A stretch of DNA of 45,457 bases, taken from assembly GCA_009693115.1 (NCBI GenBank), contig SHXW01000020.1, forward strand, positions 1 to 45,457, given 5' to 3'. Source of the DNA: Dehalococcoidia bacterium (GTDB taxonomy: Bacteria > Chloroflexota > Dehalococcoidia > Lucifugimonadales > Lucifugimonadaceae). Shown one piece after another: positions 19,713-29,082 of this stretch (within the stretch, counting starts at the first letter, position 1; each line of letters opens with the position of its first letter). Below the pieces are notes generated by a model. It saw only the letters and a program-made list of their open reading frames with translations, was not told the DNA's origin and made no database searches. The position numbers were made by a program, and so were the translations under genes.

Positions 19713-19810
19713 TGGCGGGAGTGCATGGGAGTCGAACCCACCGTCCAAACCGCAGGGCCTGGACCATCGGTTTTGAAGACCGTGAAGCGCACCGGCGCCC
19801 ACCCACTCCC
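19713..19810 (-). tRNA. selC: tRNA-Sec (anticodon UCA)
   Basis: Read on the minus strand, this 98-nt gene has the selenocysteine tRNA architecture. Acceptor GGGAGTG pairs with CACTCCC, followed by G73 and encoded CCA. The D-arm is unusually long: GGGCGC, loop CGGT, GCGCTT, six pairs including two G-U. The anticodon loop is CTTCAAA, with anticodon UCA reading UGA. The variable arm is long: GTCCAGGCC, loop CTGC, GGTTTGGAC, nine pairs. The T-arm is GTGGG-TTCGACT-CCCAT. Departures from a perfect fit are an A-A at the top of the anticodon stem and a G-G where the eighth acceptor pair would be. A serine tRNA is excluded by the anticodon and the 6-bp D stem. A functional Sec pathway would also need selA, selB and selD, none of which are in the window. 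Confidence 0.9.
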
Positions 19811-20017: not shown

Positions 20018-20344
20018 CTATTTGAGCGCAGCGTCAAGGCGTTGTTTGAGCGTGGACTTCGGCACTGCGCCTACGACCTGCCCGACCGGGTTTCCGCCCT
20101 TGAAGATCAGCAAGGTCGGGATAGATCGCACACCGTATTTGGCGGACGTGCGTGGGTTAAAGTCCACGTTAACCTTGGCGAATTTGACCTTCCCGTCGTA
20201 TTCATCGGAAAGTTCTTCCACTGACGGGGCGATCATCTTGCAAGGCCCGCACCATTCGGCCCAGAAGTCCACCATTACCGGCAGGTCTGACTTCAGGACC
20301 AGCGCCTCAAAATCGTCATCGCCGACCTCGAAAGACTTTCCCAT
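20018..20344 (-). CDS. trxA: Thioredoxin
   Basis: A 108-aa classical thioredoxin. The redox active site is WCGPCK at about residues 31-36, inside VDFWAEWCGPCKMIAPSVEEL. The cis-Pro loop is GVRSIPTLLIFKGG near 72-85, and the C-terminal helix GAVPKSTLKQRLDAAL completes the fold. ATG 20344 follows AAGGA. It reduces protein disulphides in the cytosol, normally using thioredoxin reductase, which is not in the window. It lies 143 bp downstream of nuoG in the same orientation and probably has its own promoter; selC follows further downstream. Confidence 0.97.
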   Translation of the reverse strand: MGKSFEVGDDDFEALVLKSDLPVMVDFWAEWCGPCKMIAPSVEELSDEYDGKVKFAKVNVDFNPRTSAKYGVRSIPTLLIFKGGNPVGQVVGAVPKSTLKQRLDAALK

Positions 20345-20487: not shown

Positions 20488-23274
20488 TCAGCGGGCGCCT
20501 GCCAACTCATTAGCGCGAGCTGGTATTTTCGCCAGCTTAACACGGCGCAGGGGCAATTCTGGCACGTATGGCGAGGCATCGGCCTGGATACTGTCCTGCA
20601 TGGCGCTGACGACACCACCGAAGAGGGCCGTGACGCTGACTATGCCCTGAAGCGTGGAGTCGAGCCTCGCTCTGCCAGAAACGATGGGGCCCGACTCTGA
20701 TGCGACCTCGATCATATCTCCGTCGTGTATGCCCGCAGCGGCGGCATCCCGGACGTGGATGGAGATGACTTCTTCGCGGCCGATGTAGTTCATGTCGCCG
20801 CGTTTCGCCACCTTCGGATCCCGCTCTGGTTGAATTAGCACACGGCCCGTAACAAGGGTCAACGGGTAGCCGGAGTCAGCCATCGCTGTCCGGGTCAGGC
20901 TGGGCGCGTGGTCTACGAACGCCCATTTCTGCCCCTCCTGGGTAGTTGCCAGCAGAACCGCCGTGCCGGGGGAATTCTCATCAGCGCACGGCCACTGGAT
21001 GCCGCCGTTCTGGAGCCTCTCATGCGACAACCCCGCGTACTGCGGGACCACCCGCCTGATTTCGGCAAAGACATCTGCTGCTGTCTTATAACCAAAACCA
21101 GTTACGCCCATCGTGCGGGCGAGGGCAGCAACCGTTTCCCAGCCTGTCCTCTCCTCGTTCTTGGGTAAAGCCACTCTACGTACCATCTGGACCCGCCGCT
21201 CAAGGTTCGTCACAGTGCCCTGCTGCTCCGGGTATGGCGCGGCTGGCAGGACGACATCGGCCGTGGCTGTGATCTCGGTATCAAAGACGGCGGACACGAC
21301 GAGATAGTCGAGGTGGGCGAGTTCTTTCTGCAAACCGTTCAGACCCTCTGCCTCTGCATTCAGGCCGTCGGCCATGATGATTGCGGCGCGAATGCGGCTG
21401 TCCGCAATGGCGGCGGCGAGGTCGGCCACGCCCGTGCCACGCTGTGCTGGGTCAGGCGTGCAGGCCATGTCATAAGCGCCCTGGGTGTTAGCACCTGGAT
21501 AGAGCGGGAAGATCCCGCCGCCGTCCTTCACCGCATTGCCTGTAAGAAATGCGAGATTCACCACGGCGTCCGTGAGTGCCGCCCTGCCCTCCCGCGGCAT
21601 CGTCCCCACACCGAACACAAGGCCCGCAGGCGCGCTCTTCGCGTAAATTCGTGCTGCCTTGCGTAGCAGGTCTTCACCTATCCCGCACTCATTCGCCACG
21701 ACTGCAGGGTCGAATTCGGCCAGCAGTGTCCTCTTCAGGCCATCAATACCGGACGTGCGGTTGGAGGTGAACTCCTTGTCTTCCAGAGCTTCGTCCACTA
21801 TGACGCGGGCAATGCCCCACAGGGCTAGCGTTTCCGTCCCCGGCTTCACCCGCAGCCATGTCGAGGTATATCGGGTCAGTTCAGTTTCACGCGGATCAAT
21901 GACGATTATGTCTGCGCCTGCACGAGCCGCCTTCTTCATGTAGACGGCAAGGACGTTCTGCTCCTCAGTCGGGTTGCCAGAAACGACCATGATGCATTTC
22001 GACCGTTCAAGGTGGGCCGCAGGGTGTGTGCCGGCCGCATTGCCCAGCCGCCCCCGCAATCTCTCGAATATTTCGGGGACAGTGTTCAGGCCGGAGTCAA
22101 CGTTCTGGGTCTTCAGAACGGTCCGTGCGAATTGCTGCGCAGCAAAGTGGTCCTCGTTAGTGCCGCGGGGGGAAGAAATGACGGCCACCTGATTCGGGGC
22201 AAAGACCTTCAGCTTGTCAGCGACTCGCCTGAGGGCGTCTTCCCACGTCACGCGTTTCAACACACCATTCTCACGGACATACGGGTACTTCAAGCGCTTC
22301 TTCGAGTTCGGATAGGCGTAGGCGAACTTGCCCTTGAAGCAGGCCTGACCGTTGTTGGCCTCGCCCTGGAGATCGGCAACGAAGCGTATGACCTTGTCAT
22401 AACGGTTGACCTCGGCGATCATCTGGCACCCGACCGGGCAGTTTGTGCAAACGGTCTTGACTCTTCGCGCAGCCTTCTCCCATTTGTAGTCGCGTTCGAC
22501 GAGCGCGCCGACCGGGCAAACATCAATGCACGCGCCGCAGAATTCGCATCCGGACTCAAGAAGCGATGAGCCGTGCGTCGTACCAACCAGAGAAACGCCG
22601 GAACGGTTGGTCAGCGTGAGGGCGGTGTCGAACCGCACCTCCTCGCAGACGCGGACACAACGGGCACAGACGATGCAGAGGTTGTAGTCCCGGTCATAGA
22701 ACGGGTCATCCGTGTGGACTGGGAGGTTGCGCCGGTGGTAGTTAAGCGGCGTGCGAAGGTCAAGCTCCAGGGAGCGCATGGTGTCTTTTAGTTCGCACCG
22801 TTCGTTCTTCGGGCAGATGGTGCAGCGGTCTGTAACGGATACGTGCCGCTGGCATATGTCCTGCGGGCCGCACAGCTCGATGCGGTGACACGTCAGACAA
22901 CCGTGCGGGTGCTCAGCCATCAGGAGGTCGAGGACACCCTTTCGCAGATCGATAATCGGCTCTGTATTGGTGCGGACGACCACATCCTTCTGGACAGGGG
23001 CTGTGCAGGAGGCGACGGTCGCTTTCTGAACCGTCACCTGCTCTTCTTCCACTTCAAGGTCGCCCTTCTTGACCTTGACCTTGCGGACGATCTTGACTTC
23101 AGTTTCGACAAGGCACATCCGGCACGCGCCGTAGGGCTTCATTTTGGGGTAGTAACAGAGATATGGGATATAAACCCCGGCATCCATCGCAGCCTGGATG
23201 ATGGTCTGGCCGGGTTTTGCAGTAATTGGCTTGCCGTCAATCGTGAACGGCGTCAGGGGCGCAGGGTCGGGCAT
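20488..23274 (-). CDS. nuoG: NuoG-like molybdopterin-fold Fe-S subunit (no catalytic Cys/Sec)
   Basis: Large electron-carrying subunit of an NADH-oxidising module. In order: a [2Fe-2S] domain (C40, C51, C54, C90); a His-Cys cluster (H122, C126, C129, C135); an additional C151-C154-C160 set resembling a second copy (CTICPKNERCELKD); two ferredoxin clusters (C200/203/206/210 and C243/246/249/253); the molybdopterin-domain [4Fe-4S] (C276, C279, C283, C312); then the large molybdopterin domain and C-terminal beta-barrel (VLIQPERDPKV-type region). The C-terminal part resembles formate dehydrogenase (TGNAVKDGGGIFPLYPG), but the segment where FDH has Cys or Sec reads NVDSGLNTVPE, so formate chemistry is unlikely. 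This fits NuoG. Length is 928 aa; ATG 23274 follows GGAG, 19 bp after nuoF. Confidence 0.9.
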   Translation of the reverse strand: MPDPAPLTPFTIDGKPITAKPGQTIIQAAMDAGVYIPYLCYYPKMKPYGACRMCLVETEVKIVRKVKVKKGDLEVEEEQVTVQKATVASCTAPVQKDVVVRTNTEPIIDLRKGVLDLLMAEHPHGCLTCHRIELCGPQDICQRHVSVTDRCTICPKNERCELKDTMRSLELDLRTPLNYHRRNLPVHTDDPFYDRDYNLCIVCARCVRVCEEVRFDTALTLTNRSGVSLVGTTHGSSLLESGCEFCGACIDVCPVGALVERDYKWEKAARRVKTVCTNCPVGCQMIAEVNRYDKVIRFVADLQGEANNGQACFKGKFAYAYPNSKKRLKYPYVRENGVLKRVTWEDALRRVADKLKVFAPNQVAVISSPRGTNEDHFAAQQFARTVLKTQNVDSGLNTVPEIFERLRGRLGNAAGTHPAAHLERSKCIMVVSGNPTEEQNVLAVYMKKAARAGADIIVIDPRETELTRYTSTWLRVKPGTETLALWGIARVIVDEALEDKEFTSNRTSGIDGLKRTLLAEFDPAVVANECGIGEDLLRKAARIYAKSAPAGLVFGVGTMPREGRAALTDAVVNLAFLTGNAVKDGGGIFPLYPGANTQGAYDMACTPDPAQRGTGVADLAAAIADSRIRAAIIMADGLNAEAEGLNGLQKELAHLDYLVVSAVFDTEITATADVVLPAAPYPEQQGTVTNLERRVQMVRRVALPKNEERTGWETVAALARTMGVTGFGYKTAADVFAEIRRVVPQYAGLSHERLQNGGIQWPCADENSPGTAVLLATTQEGQKWAFVDHAPSLTRTAMADSGYPLTLVTGRVLIQPERDPKVAKRGDMNYIGREEVISIHVRDAAAAGIHDGDMIEVASESGPIVSGRARLDSTLQGIVSVTALFGGVVSAMQDSIQADASPYVPELPLRRVKLAKIPARANELAGAR

Positions 23275-25788: not shown

Positions 25789-25817
25789 TTGCGGCAGTGA
25801 CCCGATCTGCCTATTGT
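25789..25817 (+). promoter_or_regulatory. Possible promoter of the second dehydratase
   Basis: TTGCGG (25789-25794), 17-bp spacer, TATTGT (25812-25817). The match is partial, but spacing is ideal and it would give a leader of about 95 nt containing the pseudoknot. Confidence 0.3.
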
Positions 25818-25876
25818 CTTGCTGGCCATTTCAGCAACCATCACGTTTCCAGCTAACACCTCTCACTCATCCCAGT

Positions 25877-25917
25877 TCCCGCAAGTCGGCAATGCGGGAC
25901 GGCAACCGACGGAGGAG
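25877..25917 (+). promoter_or_regulatory. Possible H-type pseudoknot abutting the Shine-Dalgarno
   Basis: Stem 1 is TCCCGCA (25877-25883) with TGCGGGA (25893-25899). Its 9-nt loop contains GTCGG (25885-25889), which is complementary to CCGAC (25906-25910), the five bases immediately before the SD GGAGGAG (25911-25917). The fold would be an H-type pseudoknot touching the ribosome site, the layout of several small translational riboswitches. The same GTCGG/CCGAC pair could instead form an alternative hairpin that excludes stem 1. No known riboswitch class was recognised. Confidence 0.4.
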
Positions 25918-25921
25918 CCCC

Positions 25922-27214
25922 TTGAAAATCACCAAGATCGAAACCATCCACCTGAAAGAGTTCCCGGCGGCGACGTGGGTCCAGATTTACACGGACAACG
26001 GGCACATGGGGTTGGGGGAGACATGGTTCGGGCCACGGGCAGTCGCCGGGGCAATCCACGAGATCTTCGCCCCCATGCTCATAGGCAAGAGCCCGCTTGA
26101 AATCGAAAAACACTGGCGTGACATGTTCGACATGGCGAACGCTTTCGGTTACGCCGGGGCCGAAATGCGCGCCGTCTCCGCCCTGGATACCGCCCTGTGG
26201 GACATCGCCGGACAGGAGGCGAAGCAGCCCATTTACAACATGCTCGGCGGCGCTTGCCGGGACCGCATACGCACTTACAACACCTGTGCCCAGTACGGCG
26301 ACAATAAAGATATGGACATGGCCATGCTGGACGCCGGGACTCTCGCTAAGAGTCTTTTGGACGACGGCATAAACGCCTTGAAATGGGCGTTCACTGACTG
26401 CTTCGCCGACCCCACTCGCGGCACATCACTGAAACCCGGCGACCTAGACCTGATGTGCGAGCCCATACGCCAGATACGCAATGCCGTCGGCAACCAGATG
26501 GACATTGCCAATGACGGCCACGGCCGATGGAACCTGAACAACGCCATTCGCATTGGCAAGGCCATGGACCCCTTCGACATGTTCTGGCAGGAGGAACTGA
26601 TCCAACCGACAAACGTTGAGAGCCACTTGATCCTGGCACACGAGCTTGTCGCCCCGGTCTGTGTTTCAGAACGGCTTGTCACGAAGTACCAGTTCAGGGA
26701 TTACATCCAGCGCGGCGCGGCGGAGGTCGTCATGCCTGACCTCATCTGGACAGGCGGCATAACAGAGACGCGCAAGATCGCCAACATGGCCGAGGCCGAA
26801 CTCCGCCCTGTCGCCCCGCACGACTGCACCGGCCCGGTGAACGTCTTCGCCTGCGCCCACATCTGCATGAACGCGCCCAATGCATTCATCATGGAGACCG
26901 TCCGGGCGTTCTACAGCAAGGGTGGGTTTTACGACAAGCTCGTCGAACCTAACATCAAAGTTGTGGATGGCCACCTCCTCGCCCCCGAAGGCCCCGGCCT
27001 GGGGACACGCCTCAAGAAATCCGTGCGCGGGCGATCGGACGCGACGATCGAAGTTACTGATGAACCTGCCACGCACGACCACTGGGGCGGTTTTACCGCG
27101 CCATATGAAGTGGTTGAGGAGCGCGGTCGGCGGTTTGTGCGCCGCAGAGATGCCGTTCCAACGACACGCCGCAGATCTGCGCGCTCAGATAAAGCGGGTT
27201 CCACAAAACTCTGA
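25922..27214 (+). CDS. Second enolase-superfamily sugar-acid dehydratase
   Basis: A paralogue of the gene at 467-1693. After the capping domain (ETWFGPRAVAGAIHEIFAP), the barrel has ANDGHGRWN (metal Asp with a His two residues on), FWQEELIQPTN (second acidic ligand), CVSERLVTKYQFRD (third), the Asp of MPDLIWTGG, and APHDCTGPVNVF with the base His. These positions match acid-sugar dehydratases; WQEEL replaces the usual WFEEP, suggesting a different substrate from the first copy. The frame is open from 25814, but TTG 25922 six bases after GGAGG is the evident start, giving MKITKIETIHLKEF (430 aa). The C-terminal 30 residues are basic and extra. Its leader may fold as a pseudoknot. Confidence 0.9.
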   Translation: MKITKIETIHLKEFPAATWVQIYTDNGHMGLGETWFGPRAVAGAIHEIFAPMLIGKSPLEIEKHWRDMFDMANAFGYAGAEMRAVSALDTALWDIAGQEAKQPIYNMLGGACRDRIRTYNTCAQYGDNKDMDMAMLDAGTLAKSLLDDGINALKWAFTDCFADPTRGTSLKPGDLDLMCEPIRQIRNAVGNQMDIANDGHGRWNLNNAIRIGKAMDPFDMFWQEELIQPTNVESHLILAHELVAPVCVSERLVTKYQFRDYIQRGAAEVVMPDLIWTGGITETRKIANMAEAELRPVAPHDCTGPVNVFACAHICMNAPNAFIMETVRAFYSKGGFYDKLVEPNIKVVDGHLLAPEGPGLGTRLKKSVRGRSDATIEVTDEPATHDHWGGFTAPYEVVEERGRRFVRRRDAVPTTRRRSARSDKAGSTKL

Positions 27215-27919: not shown

Positions 27920-28708
27920 TTACACGGCTCCTGGCGGTGCGCCGGCCTTCCGGGCGGCCTCAATGTCCTTCGACGTGTCCCGCTGGTGTGTCGGCATCAT
28001 CACAATCTCGGATACGAGCGTGCGCGACGGCATGGTGGCGCAGAGCATGATCGCCTCGGCCACGTCCTCAGGGCGCATCATCGTCGAGCGGGCCTTTTCG
28101 TCCGGCGGCAACGGTCGCTTGTTCAAGATGGGCGTGTCAACCTCGGCGGGGATGATCGTGCAGGCCCGGATACCTCGGTTACGCAGTTCTGTGCTGATCT
28201 CACGCATCAGCACCAGCGAGGCCGCCTTGGCTGCGCTGTAATGTGCGCCCCCCAGCAGCCCCGGTGCGAGCGCGGCCATTGATGACACTGTGATGATCGT
28301 ACCGTCACCGCGTTTTACCATGTCCTCGATGACGGACTGAGTGAGCCGGTAAACACCCTCGACATTGACCTTGAAGACGCTCTGCCAATCTTCTGCGCCG
28401 ACCCACCTGATGGAGCGTATGTTGCTCGAGTGCCCGGCATTGTTCACGACTATGTCCACACGGCCGAACTGCTTGAGTGTCCAGGCGCCAAGGGCTGCGG
28501 CGGCGTCCCCATTTTCGAGGTCGACGGCACGCGCCACAACCTTTCCGTGCGAGGCATTGATCCCCGCCACTACTTCATCCAGGGGCTGCTGGCGGCGACC
28601 AGCTATGACCACCGTCGCTCCCTCTGCAGCCATCATCCTGACCGTCTCTTTGCCGATGCCGGTCCCGCCGCCGGTCACTATCGCCACTTTGCCTTCGAGC
28701 TTGCCCAA
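27920..28708 (-). CDS. Short-chain dehydrogenase/reductase
   Basis: A classical SDR with NAD(P)-binding TGGGTGIG at residues 12-19, NNAG at 89-92, and the catalytic Ser (about 142) with Y157 and K161 in HYSAAK. The frame opens at ATG 28750, but a TTG at 28708 preceded by AAGGAGAGG places the start at the family N-terminus (KLEGKVAIVTGG); 262 aa. The basic Arg-Arg after the second strand (AGRRQQ) suggests NADPH preference. The substrate is a secondary alcohol or carbonyl of unknown identity; neighbours suggest a sugar acid. An upstream 374-bp spacer precedes it. Confidence 0.92.
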   Translation of the reverse strand: MGKLEGKVAIVTGGGTGIGKETVRMMAAEGATVVIAGRRQQPLDEVVAGINASHGKVVARAVDLENGDAAAALGAWTLKQFGRVDIVVNNAGHSSNIRSIRWVGAEDWQSVFKVNVEGVYRLTQSVIEDMVKRGDGTIITVSSMAALAPGLLGGAHYSAAKAASLVLMREISTELRNRGIRACTIIPAEVDTPILNKRPLPPDEKARSTMMRPEDVAEAIMLCATMPSRTLVSEIVMMPTHQRDTSKDIEAARKAGAPPGAV

Positions 28709-29082
28709 TTCAGCCTCTCCTTGAAACACACGTCCGTTGGTCAATTGCACCCTATGCCATGGTTTTCTGCCTCAGCGGCGAAGGGTAATGAACAGCCCTT
28801 TCGCCGGGATGTGGCGGCAGTTTTCCGCTGCTGGTGAGCCCACATCTTAGCCTGTCTGGAGCCTATGGACGGAATGCGGCCGCTGGTCCACCTACCAGCG
28901 TGCATGTACGGATCGGGAGTTGACGGAGACTCGCGTTCATCAGGCCGGATAGCGGCAGCCCACACATTCCGTGAGGCGGCTATCTCATGGCCGCTTCGCA
29001 GGATTCACAACAGTGGGGCGCACCGCACCATGGCAGGCTGCGGGTGAAGCGCCATTGCCGTACGGTGCGATCGGACCATACG
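28709..29082. other. 374-bp spacer between the tRNA nucleotidyltransferase-like gene and SDR
   Basis: No gene was recognised. It should contain the minus-strand SDR promoter. The most evident structure is a hairpin at 28777-28805. Short frames here on both strands are Pro/Arg/His-rich with no motif. Confidence 0.5.
28777..28805. repeat. 9-bp hairpin with one bulge
   Basis: GGCGAAGGG (28777-28785) pairs with CCC-T-TTCGCC (28796-28805), leaving a single bulged base and a 10-nt loop. It sits 70 bp upstream of the SDR start and could be a leader stem or a distal terminator of the preceding gene. Confidence 0.4.

Follow-up and report, generated by a model that had tools for sequence, protein, structure and literature searches.

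A stretch of DNA from a Dehalococcoidia bacterium (contig SHXW01000020.1, all 45,457 nucleotides of which are here called the window) carries at 19713-19810 on the minus strand what is almost certainly, as judged from its sequence, a functional selC gene, the gene for the selenocysteine tRNA (tRNA-Sec). The gene is ordinary and intact and lies in a genome that decodes selenocysteine (Sec). A first-pass annotation had recognised selC by its UCA anticodon, 6-bp D stem and 9-bp variable arm, and had named the covariance-model score and the presence of selA, selB and selD as the checks on that identity, both of which came out in its favour. ARAGORN calls a tRNA-SeC with anticodon tca at 19713-19810 on the minus strand, the sole tRNA in the window, and the Rfam model RF01852 aligns from end to end (model positions 1-91) with 19717-19810 at 69.5 bits (E 2.8e-12), above the family cut-off of 47 bits. 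All other RF01852-type matches in the genome score 53 bits or less, and the second best, on contig C34, is a tRNA-Ser(gct).

The gene is 98 nt long and its 3' end reads GCCA, thus the discriminator G73 and the CCA are both encoded. The UCA anticodon, which reads UGA, is placed at 19774-19776 on the minus strand (tRNA positions 35-37) by both ARAGORN and RF01852. The D stem (19785-19800, minus strand) has 6 bp and a loop of 4 nt in the covariance-model alignment, where it is formed by GGGCGC/GCGCUU with two G-U pairs included. The variable arm (19743-19764, minus strand) is formed by GUCCAGGCC/GGUUUGGAC, 9 bp with a loop of 4 nt, and is found in the MFE and the centroid structures of RNAfold alike, neither of which recovers the full cloverleaf. 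The acceptor/T branch consists of eight acceptor layers, the eighth being a G-G mismatch, and five T-stem pairs, giving 13 layers (8/5) below G73. It is this combination of covariance-model score, UCA anticodon, 13-layer 8/5 branch with G73, 6-bp D stem and long variable arm, in a genome with selA, selB and selD, that places the gene among the bacterial tRNA-Sec. Scans for promoters and terminators around selC gave nothing of note.

The genome itself is 2.0 Mb in 40 contigs and 95.6% complete, and the machinery for the use of Sec is all present. There is a selA at C22:774-2105 (553.5 bits), a selB at C6:9254-11098 (350 bits against a cut-off of 242) and a selD at C4:10096-11028 (357 bits, with one in-frame TGA), all of them above their curated cut-offs and on contigs other than that of the window. 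By the known bacterial pathway, the ordinary seryl-tRNA synthetase would put serine on the selC transcript and SelA would then convert Ser-tRNA-Sec to Sec-tRNA-Sec with selenophosphate, which would be made by SelD, apparently itself a selenoprotein here. SelB would bring the Sec-tRNA-Sec to those UGA codons that have a SECIS hairpin behind them. The predicted carriage of Sec by this tRNA, and its delivery to UGA, are supported indirectly by a conserved in-frame UGA followed by a SECIS-like hairpin.

It had been proposed from selC alone that Sec can be encoded by UGA here and that genes elsewhere in the genome may be mis-annotated as ending at UGA. Both proposals are borne out by family searches that found at least five genes with an in-frame UGA at the catalytic position, a lower bound on the selenoproteome as few families were searched. 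These are selD (CAGUAGK), the alpha subunit of formate dehydrogenase (SRTUHAP, a UHxP motif; 786.6 bits as joined pieces), a peroxiredoxin (TGGUKN), a Prx/TlpA-like thiol-disulfide oxidoreductase (YWUSHC) and a thioredoxin with NHL repeats (TYCUINC). With Sec decoding established for the genome, standard annotation will cut several of its oxidoreductase genes short. The search for the UGSC selenoprotein family found no member in this genome; proteins of that family do occur in 22 of 40 relatives (G033, G027, G034 and others; L051-L058), with a UGA within nearly all of the strong matches.

The NHL-repeat thioredoxin (G000:C34:49174-50796, locus L266; also L064:1396-3018) provides the closest view of how UGA is used. 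It is present in 22 of the 40 relatives and has an in-frame TGA in every one. In the 20 loci that were read the UGA is at the same place, within W-T-[YF]-C-U-[IV]-N-C (a W-x-x-x-U-x-x-C pattern), and 18 nt past it lies a hairpin with a 7-bp stem and an AGUU loop, typically CUUCCGC-AGUU-GCGGAAG. Across 16 distinct sequences of this hairpin 98.2% of cells are paired, with compensatory changes on both sides at two pairs; when the alignment was slid by 1-3 columns as a control, 31-71% were paired. In a sample of 201 genomes from the phylum the TGA is found in 31 of 38 homologues and is absent from 7. The site is CCINC in one Cys homologue, L295, from which both the UGA and the hairpin are missing. 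The protein combines what is expected of a selenoprotein, a conserved in-frame UGA at the position of a redox Cys with Cys homologues known, and a SECIS-type hairpin downstream. The fusion of thioredoxin to NHL repeats resembles that of animal NHLRC2.

Searches of the literature did not find such a selenoprotein, and it is not named among the 119 prokaryotic selenoprotein families of a 2026 list (PMC13188914), although a wider category of that list, for example 'thiol-disulfide isomerase-like', may include it. We give roughly even chances to the idea that this thioredoxin domain fused to NHL repeats, with its CUINC active site and conserved SECIS hairpin, is an undescribed selenoprotein family that is widespread in the phylum. 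If so, the conserved pair of UGA and SECIS could extend the selenoprotein catalogue.

None of the genes in the window itself appears to need Sec, as had been noted at first pass, since a UGA-readthrough scan of the window genes and gap ORFs gave no credible selenoprotein. The sole readthrough extension with coding character, upstream of a short-chain dehydrogenase (27920-28750), was judged to be due to chance. The thioredoxin gene upstream of selC, trxA (20018-20344, minus strand), has a standard WCGPC site, and beyond it lies a gene for a NuoG-like subunit (20488-23274, minus strand), a paralogue of the Sec-containing formate dehydrogenase of the genome. The NuoG-like protein had been described as having no Cys or Sec, which is true of its catalytic position but not of the rest of the protein, where Cys residues serve Fe-S clusters. 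That selC has no selenoprotein next to it had been singled out as a point of interest; the observation is correct but carries no significance, because selA, selB, selD and the selenoproteins sit on other contigs. The window also contains two genes of the mandelate racemase/muconate lactonizing group of the enolase superfamily (MR/MLE), at 467-1747 and 25814-27214, which would suit a SAR202-type bacterium.

What is conserved beside selC is trxA. It adjoins selC on the same strand in 17 of 20 tRNA-Sec loci of the order (L001-L020, the window's own counted) and in at least two more genomes of the class (L100, L122), and the NuoG-like gene is also kept in several of these loci. Co-transcription of trxA and selC is plausible from this arrangement, and the adjacency may give co-expression of the tRNA with a thioredoxin that could reduce Sec enzymes.

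Two stem mismatches had been reported in the tRNA and both are present, a G-G at the eighth acceptor pair, between the 5' G at 19803 and the 3' G at 19724 (minus strand; 7-66 in E. coli numbering), and an A-A as the outermost pair of the anticodon stem. It might be assumed from them that selC here is a decayed remnant that has lost its function, and the G-G pair had been thought unusual for this tRNA. The eighth pair was compared between the window (19803/19724) and other tRNA-Sec genes (L001-L020, L077-L082, L097-L166, L247-L265). Among 93 tRNA-Sec genes of the phylum, a sample skewed to high scorers, base pair 8 is G-G in 30, G-C in 24, C-G in 21, U-C in 6 and G-A in 5, more rarely A-U, U-A or A-G (2 each) and once G-U. 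It is thus non-canonical in 43 of the 93, about half of the genes sampled, compared with at most 3 for any other acceptor pair, and the idea that the G-G is unusual has to be dropped. The same pair is mismatched in 8 of 19 tRNA-Sec genes from 50 named genomes of mixed phyla, in records titled Gemmatimonadetes, Pyrinomonadaceae, Vicinamibacteria and Latescibacteria among others. As the mismatch at the eighth pair is frequent in the phylum and in the mixed sample alike it is not a sign of decay, and the position of the A-A pair is likewise mismatched in 20 of the 93 genes. The machinery and the selenoproteins are also intact and no rival match in the genome exceeds 53 bits, so decay is a most improbable explanation of the two mismatches.

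In E. coli the pair C7-G66 and the next two pairs form a determinant for SelB and an antideterminant for EF-Tu (PMC9976931). It is possible that a mismatch at base pair 8 helps to reject EF-Tu, but more simply G-G would be an intermediate between G-C and C-G that is tolerated. Natural tRNA-Sec genes often lack a Watson-Crick pair at the position that discriminates between SelB and EF-Tu in E. coli, and the role of this pair can therefore be tested by comparison.

The Sec trait is widespread in the phylum, and 231 of 301 genomes sampled have a match to tRNA-Sec with an E value of 1e-9 or lower. Some few of these matches may be tRNA-Ser, as one match at 52.9 bits turned out to be a tRNA-Ser(gct). 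Six of the 40 relatives, all small genomes (G004, G005, G006, G014, G015, G024), have strong matches to none of the four machinery genes, the joint absence that is expected of coordinated loss. Five others (G021, G026, G010, G013, G017) have no tRNA-Sec match above 60 bits despite matches to selA, selB and selD; absences of this type are probably assembly gaps, a diverged tRNA being the other option. In one family of the same class two genera, mostly with single-contig genomes, differ in size and in selC, with genomes of about 1.4-1.5 Mb lacking the gene and those of 1.7-2.1 Mb carrying it, and the tRNA-Sec of the latter genus has seven acceptor residues (L128, L134), like that of Dehalogenimonas, which points to the class Dehalococcoidia of the Chloroflexota. 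A study of a bin set that includes SAR202 reported selA and selB as enriched in the bins of sponge symbionts, which belong to various phyla (PMC5649159), and the presence of Sec genes in such bacteria is not new.

Compared with the known bacterial tRNA-Sec (RF01852, 8/5), the tRNA of the window has the same anticodon (UCA), a D stem of 6 bp, a long variable arm and an encoded G73 and CCA, and likewise combines eight acceptor layers with a 5-bp T stem. It differs in its eighth pair, which is G-G and not the Watson-Crick C7-G66 of E. coli, as in many relatives, and in the A-A at the outer anticodon-stem pair. A long variable arm and an extended acceptor are also found in the selC-star tRNA-Cys and allo-tRNA, some of which have a UCA anticodon (PMC7609411), and a look-alike of that kind would read UGA as Cys or Ser rather than as Sec. 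Those tRNAs have 12-bp branches of 8/4 or 9/3, however, unlike the 8+5 layers found here with G73 and a high RF01852 score, and the presence of selA, selB and selD together with UGA at catalytic positions further makes it very unlikely that the window encodes one of them. A true tRNA-Sec with a 12-bp (7/5) branch is known from Dehalogenimonas and others (PMC5330540). The tRNA-Sec of the window resembles it in having a shortened or weakened acceptor/T branch, and the two probably come from the same class of bacteria. It differs in that eight residues lie between the T stem and G73, giving 13 layers with one mismatched, whereas the 7-residue form of Dehalogenimonas is seen in other loci of the same class (L128, L130, L134).
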